From positions 310,001 to 374,000 of the forward strand of contig NZ_FNGF01000006.1 of the NCBI RefSeq assembly GCF_900102815.1: a stretch of 64,000 nt of DNA, given 5' to 3'. Within the stretch, counting starts at the first letter, position 1; each line of letters begins with the position of its first letter. Below the pieces are notes generated by a model. That model made no database searches and was not told the DNA's origin. It worked only from the letters and a program-made list of their open reading frames with translations. A program made the position numbers and the translations under genes. This DNA is from Glycomyces sambucus (lineage in GTDB: Bacteria; Actinomycetota; Actinomycetes; Mycobacteriales; Micromonosporaceae). Below, one piece after another: positions 6,122 to 50,996 of the stretch.

Positions 6122-11598
<5,477 letters not shown>

Positions 11599-16113: not shown

Positions 16114-17076
16114 ATGGCACATGGCCCGTCCCCCTTCGGGGTCCCGCAGCAGACGGGGCACCGGAACCAGAACGAACCGGGATTCGACTGGGCTGAGTAC
16201 GACGAGCGCGCGCAGATGAGCGCGCCGACCGTCCGACTCAGCCCGGAGGAGCAGGTGCGCCTCGCGCAGCAGCGCTCTCCCGAGGAGGAGATGGAGGCGC
16301 ACCTGGATCACATCCACGCGTCCCGTCCCCTGCGCCGCGCCGCCCAGCGCGCCCGGCGCCGCACCAAGTGGTGGCTCGTCGCGCTCGCGATCGTCAGCGG
16401 TCTCGCGGTGGCGGCCGCGTGCGCGGCGGGCGCGTTCATCGTCCTGCGCGAGGGCGAACCGGACCCGGCCGCGCCGAGCGCCGATGCCGGAGACGAGCAG
16501 CAGTCCGCAGAGGACGACGCCTCGGGCGCTCCCGAGGTCGTGGACCCGATCGCGAGCCGCACCACGGACACCGCGCCGCTGACGGTCGAGGAGCTGTTCA
16601 CGGGCGAGTCGATCACGCCCGCAGGGGCCGCCGGGGCGTACACGGTCCTGGAGGCCGAGGAGCTGTCCGACTGCGCGGAGGCCGGGCTCGACGAGCTCGC
16701 CGACCTGCTCGCGGACACCGACTGCACGCAGACGGTGCGCGCGACGATCCTCAACCCCGACGGCGAGTACGCGGCGACGGCCGGGGTGCTCAACCTGTCG
16801 ACGGCCGCCGAGGCCGAGGAGCTGCGCACGGCCATCGCGGCGGGCCTGGAGGGCGGGTTCGCGGTGCTGCGCACCGACGGCGGCGCCGAGGAGCTCGGCC
16901 GCGCCGACACGCAGCTCGGGTACAACACCTACGGGCACTACCTGATGTACGTGGTCATCGGCCGCGCCGACGGCGAGCCGCTGCTCGAGGCCGACGACGC
17001 GGTCCGCACCATCGTCGGCGACACCCTCGACATCTGGTTCGTGGACCAGCTCAACCCCCGCCGCGAGGTGCAATGA
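16114..17076 (+). CDS. single-pass membrane protein with long acidic N-terminal region, unknown function
   Basis: A 320-residue protein. Residues 1-85 are cytoplasmic by the basic flank (RRAAQRARRRTKWW). Residues ~88-110 form a membrane helix (LVALAIVSGLAVAAACAAGAFIVL). An acidic, disordered linker of ~45 residues follows, then an extracytoplasmic domain of ~165 residues (LTVEELFTGESITP...IWFVDQL) with two cysteines (LSDCAEAG and TDCTQTV) that could form a disulfide. I do not recognise the domain; actinomycetes have many such anchored proteins. The gene ends in a run of 13-bp repeats that multiply its stop codon. Confidence 0.75.
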   Translation: MAHGPSPFGVPQQTGHRNQNEPGFDWAEYDERAQMSAPTVRLSPEEQVRLAQQRSPEEEMEAHLDHIHASRPLRRAAQRARRRTKWWLVALAIVSGLAVAAACAAGAFIVLREGEPDPAAPSADAGDEQQSAEDDASGAPEVVDPIASRTTDTAPLTVEELFTGESITPAGAAGAYTVLEAEELSDCAEAGLDELADLLADTDCTQTVRATILNPDGEYAATAGVLNLSTAAEAEELRTAIAAGLEGGFAVLRTDGGAEELGRADTQLGYNTYGHYLMYVVIGRADGEPLLEADDAVRTIVGDTLDIWFVDQLNPRREVQ

Positions 17077-17125
17077 CCGAGCGCAATGACCGAGCGCAGT
17101 GACCGAGTCCGGTGACCGAGTCTCG
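17074..17125 (+). repeat. stop-codon tandem repeat (13-bp unit) at the 3' end of the 320-residue protein gene
   Basis: Four consecutive units begin with TGA: 17074 (the real stop), 17087, 17100 and 17113, units TGACCGAGCGCAA, TGACCGAGCGCAG, TGACCGAGTCCGG, TGACCGAGTCTCG. The 13-nt period places stops in frames 0, +1, +2 and 0. Confidence 0.9.
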
Positions 17126-24763: not shown

Positions 24764-25117
24764 CTAGTCGACGAGCTCGATGATCGCCATCGGCGCGTTG
24801 TCGCCCTTGCGGTACCCGGCCTTGATGATCCGGGTGTAGCCGCCCTCGCGGGTCGCGAAGCGGGGGGCGACCTGCTCGAACAGGTCGTGGGTGGCGTCCT
24901 TGTTGCGGAGCTTCGCCAGCGCCAGGCGGCGGTGGTGCAGCGTGCCCTTCTTGCCGTACGTGATGAGACGCTCGGCGTAGGGGCGCAGGCGGCGGGCCTT
25001 GGTCACCGTGGTGGTGATGCTGCCGTGCTCGAACAGGGAGGCCGCGAGGCCCGAGAGCATGAGCTTCTCGTGCGCCGGCGAACCGCCCAGACGCGGGCCC
25101 TTGGTGGGCTTGGGCAT
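24764..25117 (-). CDS. rplQ: 50S ribosomal protein L17
   Basis: 117 residues beginning [34 protein letters not shown]; start at the ATG at 25117 with GAGGAG upstream. The usual [18 protein letters not shown] and [24 protein letters not shown] blocks are present. Last ribosomal gene of the alpha operon. Confidence 0.97.
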
Positions 25118-25184
25118 TTCTAACTCCTCTTGGATTGACGCGGCCGGCCGTCTTACGGAACCGACCGCCGTATTCACGCAGCTT

Positions 25185-26231
25185 CTAGAGCTGCTCGGTC
25201 TCGCGGAGGTCTTCGCCGTCGTCCTCGTACTCGTCGGACTCGGCGACCGGCGACCCGCCGTAGGCCACGGCGGCCTCGCTCGGGTCGAAGGTCCCGGGAG
25301 AGTCCTTCAGGCTCAGGCCCATGCCGGCGAGCTTCATCTTGACCTCGTCGATCGACTTCTGCCCGAAGTTGCGGATGTCGAGCAGGTCGGCCTCGGTGCG
25401 GTTGATGAGTTCGCCGACGGTGTTGACGCCCTCGCGCTTGAGGCAGTTGTAGGACCGGACGGTCATGTCCAGGTCCTCGATCGGCAGGGCCAGGTCCGCG
25501 GCGAGCTGCTGGTCGGCCGGGCTGGGCCCGACGTCGATGCCCTCGGCCTCGGTGTCGAGCTCGCGGTACAGGCCGAACAGTTCCACCAGCGTGGAGCCCG
25601 CCGACGCCAGCGCGGTGCGCGGCGTGGTGGACGGCTTGGACTCGACGTCGACGGTGAGCTTGTCGAAGTCGGTGCGCTGCTCGACACGCGTCGCGTCGAC
25701 CGAGTAGGCGACCTTCAGCACGGGCGAGTAGATCGAGTCGACCGGGATGCGGCCGATCTCGTTCGTGTCGGCCTTGTTCTGCGGGGACGAGACGTAGCCT
25801 CGCCCGCGCTCCACCACGAACTCCATGTCGAGGCGGCCCTTCGAGTTCAGGGTCGCCAGCTTGAGCTCGGGGTTGTGGACCTGCACGCCCGCGGGGGGCT
25901 GGATGTCGCCGGCGAGGACGTCGCCGGGGCCTTCCTTGCGCAGGTACATGGTGGCCGGCTCGTCGTTCTCCGAGGAGACGCAGATCTGCTTGACGTTCAG
26001 CACCAGCTCCACGACGTCTTCCTTGACGCCGGGAATGGTGGAGAACTCGTGCAGGACGCCGTCGATCTTGATCGACGTGACCGCCGCGCCCGGGATGGAC
26101 GACAGCAGGGTGCGCCGCAGCGAGTTGCCGAGCGTGTAGCCGAAACCGGGCTCCAGGGGTTCGATGGTGAACTTGGAGCGGGTCGGGCTGATCTGCTGCT
26201 CGGTGAGCGTGGGCCGCTGAGTGATAAGCAC
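25185..26231 (-). CDS. rpoA: RNA polymerase alpha subunit
   Basis: RpoA forms the dimer that nucleates RNA polymerase assembly. N-terminal domain: [53 protein letters not shown]. The C-terminal domain starts near residue 250: [58 protein letters not shown], the DNA- and activator-binding module. The start is GTG at 26231, behind AAAGGA. The acidic C-terminal tail is typical for actinobacteria. Confidence 0.97.
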
Positions 26232-26319
26232 TGTGCGATGTTTCCTTTGTTCGGGGCGCCCGCTATTTGACGCCTAGACACTTGGATTCGGTGACGATCT
26301 CCGGTGAAGCGGTCGCGTG

Positions 26320-26718
26320 CTAGACGCGGCGGCGCTTCGGCGGGCGGCAGCCGTTGTGCGGCTGGGGCGTGACGTCGTTGATCGAGCCGACCTCGAGGCC
26401 GACGGCCTGGAGGGAGCGGATCGCGGTCTCGCGGCCCGAGCCCGGGCCCTTGACGTAGACGTCGACCTTGCGCATGCCGTTGTCCATCGCACGGCGGGCG
26501 GCGGCCTCGGCGGCCATCTGCGCGGCGTACGGGGTCGACTTGCGCGAGCCCTTGAAGCCCACCTGGCCCGAGGAGGCCCAGGAGATCACGGCACCGGTCG
26601 GGTCGGTGATCGACACGATGGTGTTGTTGAAGGTGCTCTTGATGTGGGCGTGCCCGTGGGGCACGTTCTTCTTCTTGGCGCGCGGGTTCTTGGAACCGCC
26701 GCGAGTCTTCGGTGGCAT
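26320..26718 (-). CDS. rpsK: 30S ribosomal protein S11
   Basis: 132 residues starting MPPKTRGG with a basic N-terminal segment, then [46 protein letters not shown] and the C-terminal [18 protein letters not shown]. The ATG at 26718 is 11 nt past the rpsM stop. Confidence 0.97.
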
Positions 26719-26729
26719 CAGATGGTCTC

Positions 26730-27104
26730 CTAACGTGCCTTCTTCTTGCCCGCGACGGTCTTCTTCGGACCCTTGCGAGTACGGGCGTTGGTCTTGGTCC
26801 GCTGACCGTGGACCGGAAGGCCGTAGCGGTGACGGAGACCCTGGTAGCAGTTGATCTCGATCTTGCGGCGGATGTCGGCCTGCACCTCGCGGCGCAGGTC
26901 GCCCTCGACCTGGAAGTGCTCTTCGATGTAGTTGCGGAGCAACACGAGCTCTTCGTCGGAGAGGTCCTTGACGCGCTTGTCGCGGTCGAGTTCGGTCGCG
27001 GCGATCGTCTCGAGCGAGCGCGTGCGGCCGATGCCGTAAATGTAGGTGAGTGCGATCTCCAGGCGCTTGTCGCGCGGGAGGTCCACTCCAACCAGGCGTG
27101 CCAC
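26730..27104 (-). CDS. rpsM: 30S ribosomal protein S13
   Basis: 124 residues, starting at a GTG behind GGAG. The N-terminus is [30 protein letters not shown], and the C-terminal basic tail includes [38 protein letters not shown], which contacts tRNA in the P site. Confidence 0.97.
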
Positions 27105-27271
27105 TGAGGCGTACTCCTAGTGTTGTCGGAGGTCTGACCACTGCCTTCCCGCTGGGCTTGTACCCCTGCCCTGACGAGCGATGCGAGCCCCGGCCTCCGA
27201 GCCGGGGGTTGTGCTTGCGCACTGGCGGTGGTTTCCCCTGTTGGGGCCTTTCCTGCTGGCGTGTGTGCTGC

Positions 27272-27388
27272 TTAGCCCTGACGCTGCTTGTGACGCGGGT
27301 CGGAAGAGCAGATAATCATCACTCGTCCGTGCCTGCGGATCACGCGGCAGTTCTTGCAGATCACTTTGACGCTCGGCTTGACTTTCAC
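27272..27388 (-). CDS. rpmJ: 50S ribosomal protein L36
   Basis: This 38-residue gene is easily missed by length filters. A GTG start at 27388 gives [21 protein letters not shown], then a segment ending in [12 protein letters not shown], and a TAA stop. The three cysteines and one histidine (CxxC...C...H) form the zinc ribbon of the zinc-binding L36 type. It lies 26 nt after infA. The gap between it and rpsM (27105-27271) contains a small GC hairpin near 27190-27210. Confidence 0.96.
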
Positions 27389-27414
27389 GAGTCCTACTTC
27401 ATGTAGTCGTCAGG

Positions 27415-27636
27415 TCAGCGGTAACGGTAGACAATCCGCCCGCGCGACAGGTCGTACGGCGAGAGCTCCACCACGACCCGGTCCTCAGGGAGGATTCGGA
27501 TGTAGTTCTGTCGCATCTTGCCGCTGATGTGAGCGAGTACTTTGTGGCCGTTGGTGAGTTCCACCCGGAACATGGCGTTCGGGAGGGACTCGACAACTTT
27601 GCCTTCAATCTCGATGGCACCGTCTTTTTTCGGCAT
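27415..27636 (-). CDS. infA: translation initiation factor IF-1
   Basis: 73 residues: [54 protein letters not shown] and the terminal [13 protein letters not shown]. An OB-fold protein that binds the 30S A site during initiation. The ATG at 27636 has GGAGG upstream. The promoter of the infA-rplQ operon should lie within 27640-27890. Confidence 0.97.
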
Positions 27637-27896
27637 GTCCTCCGCTACCGTGACAACTCGGTCTGAAAACCCCGCACGTGTTCTGGTGCACGGGGCTACT
27701 GGCACGCCAGTCCGACGCAGATGCTTCGGGCGGGCGAAAGAACGGTACTGCGCTTCGCCAGGTGCGCCTGGGTGATAATTCACCACAAACGCGGGGCGAC
27801 CCGACAAGGGACGCACTGCACCACTGAGCGAGTCTACTCGCGTCCCGAGACCGCCTACCAGGGGGTTGACCGTGACGGAGGGCACTCGGGCGGCGT

Positions 27897-27931
27897 CCGA
27901 GTGCCGTCGAGCGAGGCTCGACGGCACTCGG
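27897..27931 (-). terminator. terminator of rpsD with an overlapping alternative hairpin
   Basis: CCGAGTGCCGTCGAG - CGAGG - CTCGACGGCACTCGG is a perfect 15-bp stem about 70 nt beyond the rpsD stop. Its left arm can instead pair with GGCACTCGG at 27881-27889, giving a 9-bp competitor hairpin. The two structures are mutually exclusive. Confidence 0.7.
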
Positions 27932-27944
27932 TGCACGCTCAGGC

Positions 27945-28014
27945 TTACTTGAGCAGCGCTCGCGGGTGCTGCCACTTCGAGCAGCACTCGCCTGTGCTGT
28001 TACTTCGAGTAGTA
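27945..28014 (-). repeat. 28-bp degenerate tandem repeat of the rpsD 3' end
   Basis: On the minus strand the last codons of rpsD, GAGTACTACTCGAAGTAA, are followed by CAGCACAGGC, then GAGTGCTGCTCGAAGTGG, CAGCACCCGC, and GAGCGCTGCTCAAGTAAG. Two degenerate copies of the gene end thus follow it with periods of 28 and 27 nt. One copy retains a stop (27945-27947) in a different frame. Confidence 0.7.
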
Positions 28015-28605
28015 CTCGACGACGAGCTGCTCGTCGCAGATCACGGGGATCTGCTTGCGCTCGGGCACCGACAGGAAGCGGGCGATCAGGCCCTCGAGGT
28101 GGGACTCGATGTAGGCCGGAGTCGTCTCGCCCGCCCACGCGCCGGCCGCGGCCAGCTGGAACGGGGTGGTCTCGCGGGACTTCTTGCGGACCTGGACGAA
28201 GTCGCCGGACTTCAGGCGGTAGGAGGCGATGTCGACCTTGCGGCCGTTCACCGTGAAGTGGCCGTGGTTGACGAACTGCCGGGCCTGGTAGATGGTCCGG
28301 GCGAAGCCGGCGCGGAGCACGAAGGCGTCCAGGCGGGATTCGAGCAGGCCGACCAGGACCTCGCCGGTCTTGCCGGGCTTGCGCACGGCCTCGGCGTAGG
28401 CGTTCCGCAGCTGGCGCTCAGAGATGTTGTACTGAGCGCGGAGACGCTGCTTCTCCACGAGCTGGTTCTTGTAGTCCGATTCCTTCTTGCGGCCGCGGCC
28501 GTGCTGCCCCGGAGGGTACGGACGGCGCTCCATGTACTTGGCGGCCTTCGGCGTCAGAGCGATGCCGAGGGATCGGGAAAGCTTGACTTTCGCCTTAGCT
28601 TGCAA
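28000..28605 (-). CDS. rpsD: 30S ribosomal protein S4
   Basis: S4 is a primary 16S rRNA binder that organises the 5' domain. Seen are AKVKLSRSLGIALTPKAAKYMERRPYPPGQHGRGRKKESDYKNQLVEKQRLRAQYNISERQL, the S4 RNA-binding motif RLDAFVLRAGFARTIYQARQFVNHGHFTVNGRKVDIASY and the C-terminal VPERKQIPVICDEQLVVEYYSK. Start: TTG at 28605 has GGAGAG six nt upstream and begins at the family's usual N-terminus (MQAKAKVKLSRS). An ATG at 28644 would add 13 residues without a clear ribosome site. It is not between rpsK and rpoA but separately transcribed upstream of infA, consistent with the split arrangement known in Streptomyces. Confidence 0.94.
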   Translation of the reverse strand: MQAKAKVKLSRSLGIALTPKAAKYMERRPYPPGQHGRGRKKESDYKNQLVEKQRLRAQYNISERQLRNAYAEAVRKPGKTGEVLVGLLESRLDAFVLRAGFARTIYQARQFVNHGHFTVNGRKVDIASYRLKSGDFVQVRKKSRETTPFQLAAAGAWAGETTPAYIESHLEGLIARFLSVPERKQIPVICDEQLVVEYYSK

Positions 28606-28787
28606 TGATCTCTCCAGTAATTCATGCGTAGCCTCGAACGACATACGAGGCAGATTGCGTCCCTGACCGGCAGAAACGCGTGAGTGTAGCGCGCTCAGGA
28701 ATGCACCTAGGTGTTGCTAGGGCCTGGCGCGCACACGGTGATGCGGTCGCTCCGCGCCGCCGAGGCGGTACAGAGCTCGGGTCCAGG

Positions 28788-31950: not shown

Positions 31951-32166
31951 ATGAACTGGCGTCTCTTCGGCTGGCTCGCGGCCCTGTTCGGCGGTGCCAT
32001 CATCGCGATCTGGCTCGTGGCGTCCCTGATCGGCTTCATCTTCGGCGCCCTCGGGTTCCTCATCAAGGCCGCGATCGTCGTCGGCATCATCGGCGTCATC
32101 GGCTGGTTCGGCTACAAGGGCTACAAGGCCATCGGCGGCTCGGAGCGGCGCCAGATCCGGAAGTAG
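31951..32166 (+). CDS. small two-helix membrane protein (DUF5326-like)
   Basis: 71 residues: MNWRLFGWLAALFGGAIIAIWLVASLIGFIFGALGFLIKAAIVVGIIGVIGWFGYKGYKAIGGSERRQIRK. Two hydrophobic helices occupy residues ~5-28 and ~32-55, with a positively charged tail that is probably cytoplasmic. It resembles small actinobacterial membrane proteins of the DUF5326 type; function unknown. The ATG at 31951 has GGAG nine nt upstream; a GTG three codons earlier is less likely. The last codons and stop are the first unit of a 29-bp tandem repeat. Confidence 0.8.
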   Translation: MNWRLFGWLAALFGGAIIAIWLVASLIGFIFGALGFLIKAAIVVGIIGVIGWFGYKGYKAIGGSERRQIRK

Positions 32167-32250
32167 TTCCGGTCCAGAGGTACAGCCGGAAGTAGTTCCG
32201 GTCTAGAAACACAGCCGGAAGTAGTTCCGGTCGAGAAACACAGCCGAAAG
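32157..32250 (+). repeat. stop-codon tandem repeat (29-bp unit) at the 3' end of the small membrane protein gene
   Basis: Three units start CCGGAAGTAGTTCCGGTC at 32157, 32186 and 32215, and a decayed fourth (CCGAAAGCAG) starts at 32244. Each contains the TAG that ends the gene: 32164 (real), 32193, 32222. With period 29 the stops fall in frames 0, +2 and +1. Each unit also contains the palindrome CCGGAAGTAGTTCCGG (GGAA..TTCC). Confidence 0.9.
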
Positions 32251-32301
32251 CAGCGGTCCCGCCCCTGGCCTTCAGTCGCCCGAGTAGTCCATGCTGAAGC
32301 C

Positions 32302-49694: not shown

Positions 49695-49775
49695 TCAGTC
49701 GAATGCGTCATGCAACCGTGTCATGCAACCGTGTCACTCGACCACGCCATTCAACCGCGTCACTCAGCCGCATCA
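49695..49775 (-). repeat. stop-codon tandem repeat array (13-bp unit, seven units) at the fahA 3' end
   Basis: On the plus strand TCA recurs at exactly 13-nt steps: 49773 (the real fahA stop), 49760, 49747 (mutated to CCA), 49734, 49721, 49708, 49695. The minus-strand unit is of the form TGACGCGGTTGAA or TGACACGGTTGCA. A second TGA within some units (for example 49777-49779, 49764-49766, 49751-49753) adds more stops. All three frames are closed repeatedly within 80 nt. There are no spacers, so this is not CRISPR. Confidence 0.92.
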
Positions 49776-50996
49776 TTCAACCGCGGGCAGGATCGTCCCG
49801 GTGACCTCGCCGAGGCCGATGACCGCGCCGTCCGGGCCGGGCGCGGTGGCCCCGATCGTGACCGTGTCGCCGTCCTCCAGGAACGTGCGGGACTCCCCGT
49901 CCCCCACCCGGACCGGCTCCCGGCCGCCCCACGTGAGCTCGATGAACGACCCGCGCTCGTCGGCGCCCCCGCCCGAGACGGTGCCGGAGGCGAACAGGTC
50001 GCCGGTGCGCAGCGACGCGCCGTTGACGGTCATGTGCGCGAGCATCTGCGCGGGGGTCCAGTACATGCCCGCGAACGGCGGGCGGGCGACCTCGGTGCCG
50101 TTCCAGCGCACCGACATCGACAGGTCGTATCCGAACCGCTCGGTCTCCTGGAGGTAGCCGAGCGGGGCCGGGTCCTGCACGGGGGCGGCGGCCTTCGCGG
50201 CCGCCAGCGCGTCGAGCGGGGTCACCCAGTGGCCGATCGAGGTCGCGAAGGACTTGCCGAGGAACGGGCCGAGCGGCACGTACTCCCACGCCTGGATGTC
50301 GCGCGCGGACCAGTCGTTGACCAGGACCGCGCCGAAGACGTGCTCGGCGAAGTCGTCCGGGTTCACCGGGGTGCCGAGGTCGGTGCCGACGCCGACGACG
50401 AAGCCCACTTCGGCCTCGATGTCGAGGCGGGCGCTGGGGCCGAACTCGATCGGACCGTCGGGGGTCTTGCGCTGGCCCCTCGGGCGGACGACGGGCGTCC
50501 CGGAGGGGACGACGGTGCCGGCGCGGCCGTGGTAGCCGACCGGGAGGTGCTTCCAGTTGGGCAGCAGGGGCTCCGAGTCGGGCCGGAAGAGGCGGCCGAG
50601 GTTCGTGGCGTGGTGCTCGGAGGCGTAGAAGTCCACGTAGTCGGCGACGTGGAACGGCAGGTGCATGCGGGCCTTGGCGACCGGGGTGAGCAGCGTCGCG
50701 GACTGGTCCTGGTGGCGGCGGTCGGCCAGGAGCTCGGTGAGCTGGTGGCGGACGAGGCGCCACGCGGGCGGGCCCATCGCGAGGAACGCGTTCAGGGCGC
50801 CGTCGTGGAACGCGGGCCGGATCCACGGCAAAAAGAACGTGCCGGTGGCGAGCGCGCGCAGGTCGAGGACCTGGTCGCCGATGCGGACCCCGATGCGCGG
50901 GGCCGGGTCCTTGCGGGTCGAGAAGACGCCGTAGGGCAGGTGGGCGAGGCCGTACGGGCCGGCGTCGGCGCCTTCGACCCAGGTGGTGGCGGTCAT
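49773..50996 (-). CDS. fahA: fumarylacetoacetase
   Basis: Fah cleaves fumarylacetoacetate to fumarate and acetoacetate, the last step of tyrosine degradation. The N-terminal domain has FGLxNLPYGVFS-like YGLAHLPYGVFSTRKDPAPRIGVRIGD. The catalytic domain has DYVDFYASEHHATNLGRLFR, NWKHLPVGYHGRAGTVV, LDIEAEVGFVVG, VLVNDWSARDIQAWEYVPLGPFLGKSFATSI and ASGTVSG. 407 residues. The start ATG at 50996 overlaps the stop of the preceding gene (ATGA). Its own stop begins a 13-bp repeat array. Confidence 0.96.
   Translation of the reverse strand: MTATTWVEGADAGPYGLAHLPYGVFSTRKDPAPRIGVRIGDQVLDLRALATGTFFLPWIRPAFHDGALNAFLAMGPPAWRLVRHQLTELLADRRHQDQSATLLTPVAKARMHLPFHVADYVDFYASEHHATNLGRLFRPDSEPLLPNWKHLPVGYHGRAGTVVPSGTPVVRPRGQRKTPDGPIEFGPSARLDIEAEVGFVVGVGTDLGTPVNPDDFAEHVFGAVLVNDWSARDIQAWEYVPLGPFLGKSFATSIGHWVTPLDALAAAKAAAPVQDPAPLGYLQETERFGYDLSMSVRWNGTEVARPPFAGMYWTPAQMLAHMTVNGASLRTGDLFASGTVSGGGADERGSFIELTWGGREPVRVGDGESRTFLEDGDTVTIGATAPGPDGAVIGLGEVTGTILPAVE

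Follow-up and report, generated by a model that had tools for sequence, protein, structure and literature searches.

Tandem arrays over stop codons in Glycomyces sambucus: probable minisatellites tolerated at gene ends

Several genes of the soil bacterium Glycomyces sambucus, among them fahA, end in short tandem arrays that carry copies of the gene's own stop codon, and this observation is real and general. We consider it likely, with a probability of about 0.8, that the arrays are minisatellites born by slippage and tolerated at stops, the extra stop codons being passengers. In the mechanism that we propose, a minisatellite-like or VNTR-like array would arise when a gene's 3′ terminus is duplicated in tandem, together with its final few codons, its stop, and a little of the sequence beyond, and, judging from the patterns among its copies, would grow and shrink by slippage or by unequal recombination between units. 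A duplication across a stop would leave the upstream copy unchanged and keep the protein end whatever the period or copy number, and the equivalent duplication at a start codon would probably disturb the ribosome-binding site and the start. Arrays may thus persist at stops because the upstream copy, and hence the protein, stays intact after duplication. Extra stops fall in all frames automatically, as passengers, whenever the stop is kept in three copies and the period is not divisible by three.

Stop-straddling arrays in the window and across the genome

The window, by which we mean the whole 64,000-nucleotide stretch of DNA that was analysed, is part of a Glycomyces genome of 5.60 Mb in 16 contigs; the names fahA, thiC, rpsD (ribosomal S4), and hutH (an aromatic lyase taken as hutH) come from Pfam matches. 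The fahA gene, for a fumarylacetoacetase (49773..50996, minus strand; Pfam PF01557 and PF09298) whose product has 94% identity to its counterparts in G. dulcitolivorans and G. albidus, ends at a TGA (49775-49773, minus strand) that lies in the first of the seven units of a 13-nt tandem array (49695..49784, minus strand). An earlier note on this DNA had described the TGA as recurring every 13 nt over six more units, one of them mutated, and so it does: stops stand in the 13-nt register 13, 39, 52, 65, and 78 nt downstream, the stop at 26 nt is mutated, and five of the six further units retain theirs.

The arrays described at the ends of a 320-residue protein gene (13 nt, about four units, 17070..17122, plus strand, over the stop at 17074-17076) and of a 71-residue protein gene (31951-32166; 29 nt, about 3.3 units, 32157..32253, plus strand, over the TAG) were confirmed with scores of 30 and 50.5 at a window threshold of 14. 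So was the array over the TAA of rpsD (28 nt, about 2.4 units, 27951..28018, minus strand, stop 28002-28000), which had been counted among the weaker cases and scored 22.5. Neither the 320-residue nor the 71-residue protein matched a Pfam family. At the thiC stop, the 14-nt array (6126..6160, minus strand) is visible in 2.5 copies but is borderline at a score of 13.5, just under the threshold, as shuffles still yield 7.6 arrays per 109 kb of intergenic DNA at a score of 12 (78 real). The array proposed at hutH amounts to just two copies of about 8 nt, is not listed even at a threshold of 9, and does not rise above chance. The claim that each array places stops in all three frames holds at fahA, thiC, and the 320- and 71-residue genes, but not at rpsD, where stops fall in frames 0 and 1 only.

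Other repeats lie elsewhere in the window. Tandem repeats with periods of 6, 12, 18, 30, and 36 nt, all multiples of three, occur within the long thiC reading frame between its two Pfam domains (7645-7768), repeats with periods of 9-63 nt occupy the 3′ terminal portion of a LemA-family gene as far as the stop (2276-2504), and strong repeats with periods of 63 and 99 nt span positions 9999-10203, where they overlap the beginning of a gene called on the minus strand (9175-10233). In the region 24767-28644 (minus strand), rpsD is situated upstream of an open reading frame with an infA (IF-1) domain, with rpsM, rpsK, rpoA, and rplQ further downstream. It is usually located between rpsK and rpoA, and it appears to have been relocated in this genome.

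Across 1.99 Mb of the same genome, we searched 1187 intergenic regions with lengths of 20-600 nt, 191.8 kb in all, for tandem arrays without gaps and with periods of 6-60 nt; intergenic regions of more than 600 nt fall outside the main counts, so that the window arrays of the 320-residue gene and rpsD are omitted there. Genes were called with our own codon-usage script, which misses some genes and leaves start positions uncertain, and which gives exact stops if the frame is right. Three of 99 arrays lay mostly in coding DNA and were removed before the main counts. The remaining 96, mostly in intergenic DNA, compare with 3, 0, and 1 in three shuffles, and as head-to-tail arrays of units of about 6-60 nt in excess of the shuffled expectation, they are minisatellites or VNTRs by form. 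A replicate in 950 kb of Nonomuraea gerenzanensis (NZ_LT559118.1, a record of 11.85 Mb labelled plasmid I and, from its size, presumably a chromosome) gave 70 arrays in 86.5 kb. A mixed actinobacterial set of 80 loci and 20 stretches gave 67, and in its first Glycomyces group there is a single array, of period 29, as in L032.

Chance or assembly artefact could be suspected from the weak thiC and hutH cases and from the draft state of the assembly, but we find it hardly credible, since the shuffles come nowhere near the real count, the copies have diverged, and matching arrays at fabF are present in the assemblies of other species. The units are also unrelated to one another: for the 85 of 96 arrays with a period of at least 10 nt, one of 3570 pairs matched at E ≤ 0.01, compared with 12 among length-matched control segments. 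Genome-wide, with array numbers far above the shuffles, this supports the claim that differing units reflect a recurring process and not one mobile repeat. A mobile repeat family inserted at gene ends, like the mycobacterial MIRUs, would fit with the overlap of gene ends by repeats at many loci, but beside such unrelated units its probability is close to nil; the first unit of stop-straddling arrays includes the host gene's own last bases, and the fahA unit shows no dispersal, since with one mismatch allowed the genome has 3 matches inside the array and 11 outside it, against 9 for the reversed pattern. A single MIRU-like family is refuted, as no one sequence family is dispersed at many loci.

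Arrays at stops and starts, and their periods

In the Glycomyces genome, arrays overlap (by at least 3 nt) 25 of 1137 stop ends versus none of 1237 called start ends, with almost no arrays in shuffles; without the limit on region length and with the same scoring, the counts are 33 of 1239 stops and 1 of 1338 starts. Nonomuraea has arrays at 20 of 501 stops and 1 of 603 starts, and for the two genomes together the asymmetry is highly significant (Fisher P 3.5e-14). The mixed actinobacterial set gives 12 of 748 stops versus 1 of 856 starts, totals that are slightly inflated because some stretches of two Glycomyces species (L030/G006 and L031/G005) were probably counted twice. Called starts are positioned with less certainty than stops, so the number of arrays over true starts may be too low. 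Wherever arrays are common, the same asymmetry between stops and starts is seen.

The excess of stop arrays over plain placement is modest and not secure. Under a null of uniform intergenic placement, in which overlap with a stop is permitted up to one period, 14.5 arrays (sd 3.0) would be expected at Glycomyces stops against the 25 observed, an excess of about 1.7-fold (P 0.0005), whereas the 20 stop arrays of Nonomuraea compare with 15.8 (sd 2.6), which is not significant (P 0.08). The expectation that arrays gather at stops more than elsewhere in intergenic DNA was thus borne out in the first genome and not significantly in the second.

This modest excess in Glycomyces would fit transcription-linked damage, in which R-loops formed by ribosome-free, purine-rich nascent RNA past the stop promote duplication there. 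With the stop triplets left out, stop arrays are indeed purine-rich on the sense strand (0.554, n 27, versus 0.496, n 745; P 0.0004) and show an excess of G over C (0.049 versus -0.040; P 0.005). However, copied coding ends may themselves be purine-rich, no such richness is seen in the 40 remaining arrays between co-directional genes (0.477), stop arrays in Nonomuraea are not significantly above uniform placement, and convergent and co-directional ends are similar. The bias is weak, and we judge R-loops an improbable source of the arrays.

Repeated stops in all frames could also be read as fail-safe terminators, selected to catch readthrough or frameshifted ribosomes, a role that the earlier note had put forward. 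Such stops are found in four of the five window arrays, and 38 of 60 downstream copies in Glycomyces and 30 of 42 in Nonomuraea still hold a stop. The accompanying claim, that the period is never a multiple of three, is true of these window arrays but fails genome-wide. Among all intergenic arrays, 76 of 233 periods are divisible by three (28 of 96 in Glycomyces, 24 of 70 in Nonomuraea, and 24 of 67 in the mixed set), where one third is expected (P 0.84), and among stop-straddling arrays the count is 15 of 57 (7 of 25, 3 of 20, and 5 of 12, in the same order; P 0.33 against one third). Some subsets lean away from three, namely the 3 of 20 in Nonomuraea and 3 of 19 in Glycomyces under the strictest scoring (7 of 30, 10 of 33, and 17 of 45 under other schemes), but in the pooled set the avoidance is not significant. 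Within coding interiors sampled to matching length, by contrast, each of the 19 arrays that score at least 14 has a period that is a multiple of three.

Later copies do not preserve the stop triplet better than the other positions of the unit, with 147 of 180 bases identical versus 819 of 1039 elsewhere in Glycomyces (23 arrays) and 112 of 127 versus 739 of 840 in Nonomuraea. Together, unbiased periods and unconserved stop triplets argue against an all-frame ribosome-stopping device, which predicts neither. Arrays show no enrichment before co-directional neighbours, either in Glycomyces (13 of 693 co-directional versus 12 of 444 convergent ends) or in Nonomuraea (9 of 313 versus 11 of 188), and they are missing from relatives in most comparisons. 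Published genome-scale work reports, in the portion of its text available, no sign of selection for additional 3′ stops in eubacteria, and finds such stops fewest relative to expectation in GC-rich genomes (PMC6764699). A readthrough or frameshift catcher is therefore not supported, and we regard it as very unlikely.

Turnover among relatives and register relative to the stop

Across the fahA stop, an array is present in none of 12 other Glycomyces. Their FahA C-terminus falls at the same residue in eight and 1 to 5 residues away in four, and in one of them (G010) a different array, of period 29 nt, lies about 97 nt beyond the stop. When 29 array genes were queried in the available stretches of the relatives' genomes, with orthologues defined by at least 60% identity, five of the genes had one there, and thiC and 23 others had none. 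For the four besides fahA (the 320-residue gene in 4 relatives, the 71-residue gene in 2, and two more in 3 and 1), every relative ends at the identical residue and lacks a stop-straddling array; in G005, a weak array of period 28 nt lies 32 nt beyond the stop of the 320-residue gene. The array of a 303-residue gene (C5:897638-898549) is absent at the stop in 12 relatives. In the cases compared, the absence of arrays from most relatives with protein ends kept indicates that they were born on existing stops, are turning over, and are dispensable. In the genes compared, C-terminal extension into a pre-existing array is unsupported, as the orthologues lack arrays and yet share the end residue or differ from it by a few positions.

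A fabF-type gene carries a 35/36-nt stop array called in 5 of 13 Glycomyces species, and by eye four more have weaker remnants and four have none. Both here and in G008, the copies past the stop bear the species' own coding variant (CCG or GCG before the stop) in the same place, as copying between units or from the gene end would produce. Between species, copy number or presence thus varies among related genomes, as in minisatellites and VNTRs. At these 3′ ends (L250-L262), the stop array ranges from none to about four copies among the 13 Glycomyces, and by eye a terminator-like inverted repeat lies shortly downstream in many of them.

Neighbouring units resemble each other more than distant ones do (0.815 versus 0.758, P 0.001) in the 23 arrays with four or more copies, and units at the edges have diverged further than those inside (0.765 versus 0.789, P 0.007), the pattern of like neighbours and diverged edges that marks slippage or unequal exchange. 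Among the options in the earlier note, a footprint of slipped-strand replication is the best supported, given the stop/start asymmetry, the unbiased periods, and this gradient of unit similarity.

The position at which arrays begin counts against slippage-born minisatellites as the explanation, as does the 1.7-fold stop excess. In Glycomyces, 18 of 27 stop-overlapping arrays begin 9-14 nt before the gene end, nine of them at exactly 13 nt, versus 7.6 expected uniformly (P 0.0002 after a scan of all windows of that width), and plain slippage does not predict this cluster. The clustered arrays have periods of 13 to 35 nt, and their first unit opens with the final two to four codons, followed by the stop. 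Under four scoring schemes, the register holds in Glycomyces for 21 of 30, 21 of 35, 18 of 28, and 12 of 20 arrays; it is not clear in Nonomuraea (8 of 20, P 0.13) or in the mixed actinobacteria (3 of 14). Units anchored on the stop might mean that some process linked to translation termination sets off the duplications, or that selection keeps whole termination contexts, a reading that we consider unlikely. If replicated, the stop-anchored register would point to a termination-coupled mutational process.

The number of arrays per genome depends on lineage. Intergenic DNA holds 96 arrays in 191.8 kb in this genome, 4 in 8.5 kb in G006, and 3 in 6.2 kb in G008, versus low-density Glycomyces with 1 in 35.1 kb (G011), none in 8.9 kb (G005), 1 in 8.9 kb (G002), and 1 in 8.0 kb (G012), samples that are small for all but this genome and G011. 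Between the related species G000 and G011 (L209-L228), the intergenic density differs about 18-fold. Other actinobacteria range from 1 array in 14.8 kb (Rhodococcus, Nocardia, and allies) to 34 in 21.9 kb (Streptomycetaceae). The 250 kb of Streptomyces sp. BHT-5-2 are array-poor, with 4 arrays in 23.0 kb of intergenic DNA and no stop-straddling array among 109 stops. Loss of NucS or SbcD is rejected as the cause of high density, both being present in all 13 Glycomyces genomes. With density differing so sharply among close relatives in the actinobacteria, the mutational cause of the arrays can be tested.

Comparison with known systems

Tandem duplications here pass through a coding filter in a clean form: they are tolerated at stops, nearly absent at called starts, and held to multiples of three within genes. 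The stop is the gene border at which a tandem duplication is harmless, with multiplication of the stop a consequence, and an eye-catching architecture, here the recurrence of stops in every frame, need not have been selected in order to arise.

Of the papers found in literature searches, none names the pattern of stop-straddling arrays for actinobacteria in its title or the opening of its abstract. The comparisons below draw on the portions of each source that were available. A survey of prokaryote satellites, which gives 4.20 per Mb for Streptomyces coelicolor, likewise finds a density that is very uneven between species, and it differs in that gene ends are not treated under the word "stop" in the text available (PMC6749651). 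The MIRUs resemble the Glycomyces arrays as repeats at gene borders in actinobacteria (PMC12548453), but the arrays described here consist of unrelated units at stops.

VNTRs that overlap stop codons have already been published in Yersinia pestis (PMC3689786) and in Borg elements (PMC9879509). In Y. pestis, 84.1% of VNTRs have motifs of 7-21 bp, and of 88 loci 10 lie over stops and 6 over starts; its authors suggested that a change in copy number at stops might affect the ORF less (PMC3689786). These are, like ours, short tandem arrays able to contain a gene's stop codon, but their copy number varies between strains, whereas the Glycomyces arrays were compared between species only; the stop/start asymmetry is also stronger in Glycomyces, and many copies there have diverged (PMC3689786). 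The tandem repeats of Borg elements start within ORF ends, and 14-38% of their intergenic unit lengths are divisible by three, compared with all of those inside ORFs (PMC9879509). In Borg elements, the units are A-rich and identical or almost identical to one another (PMC9879509), whereas those of Glycomyces are diverged and GC-rich.
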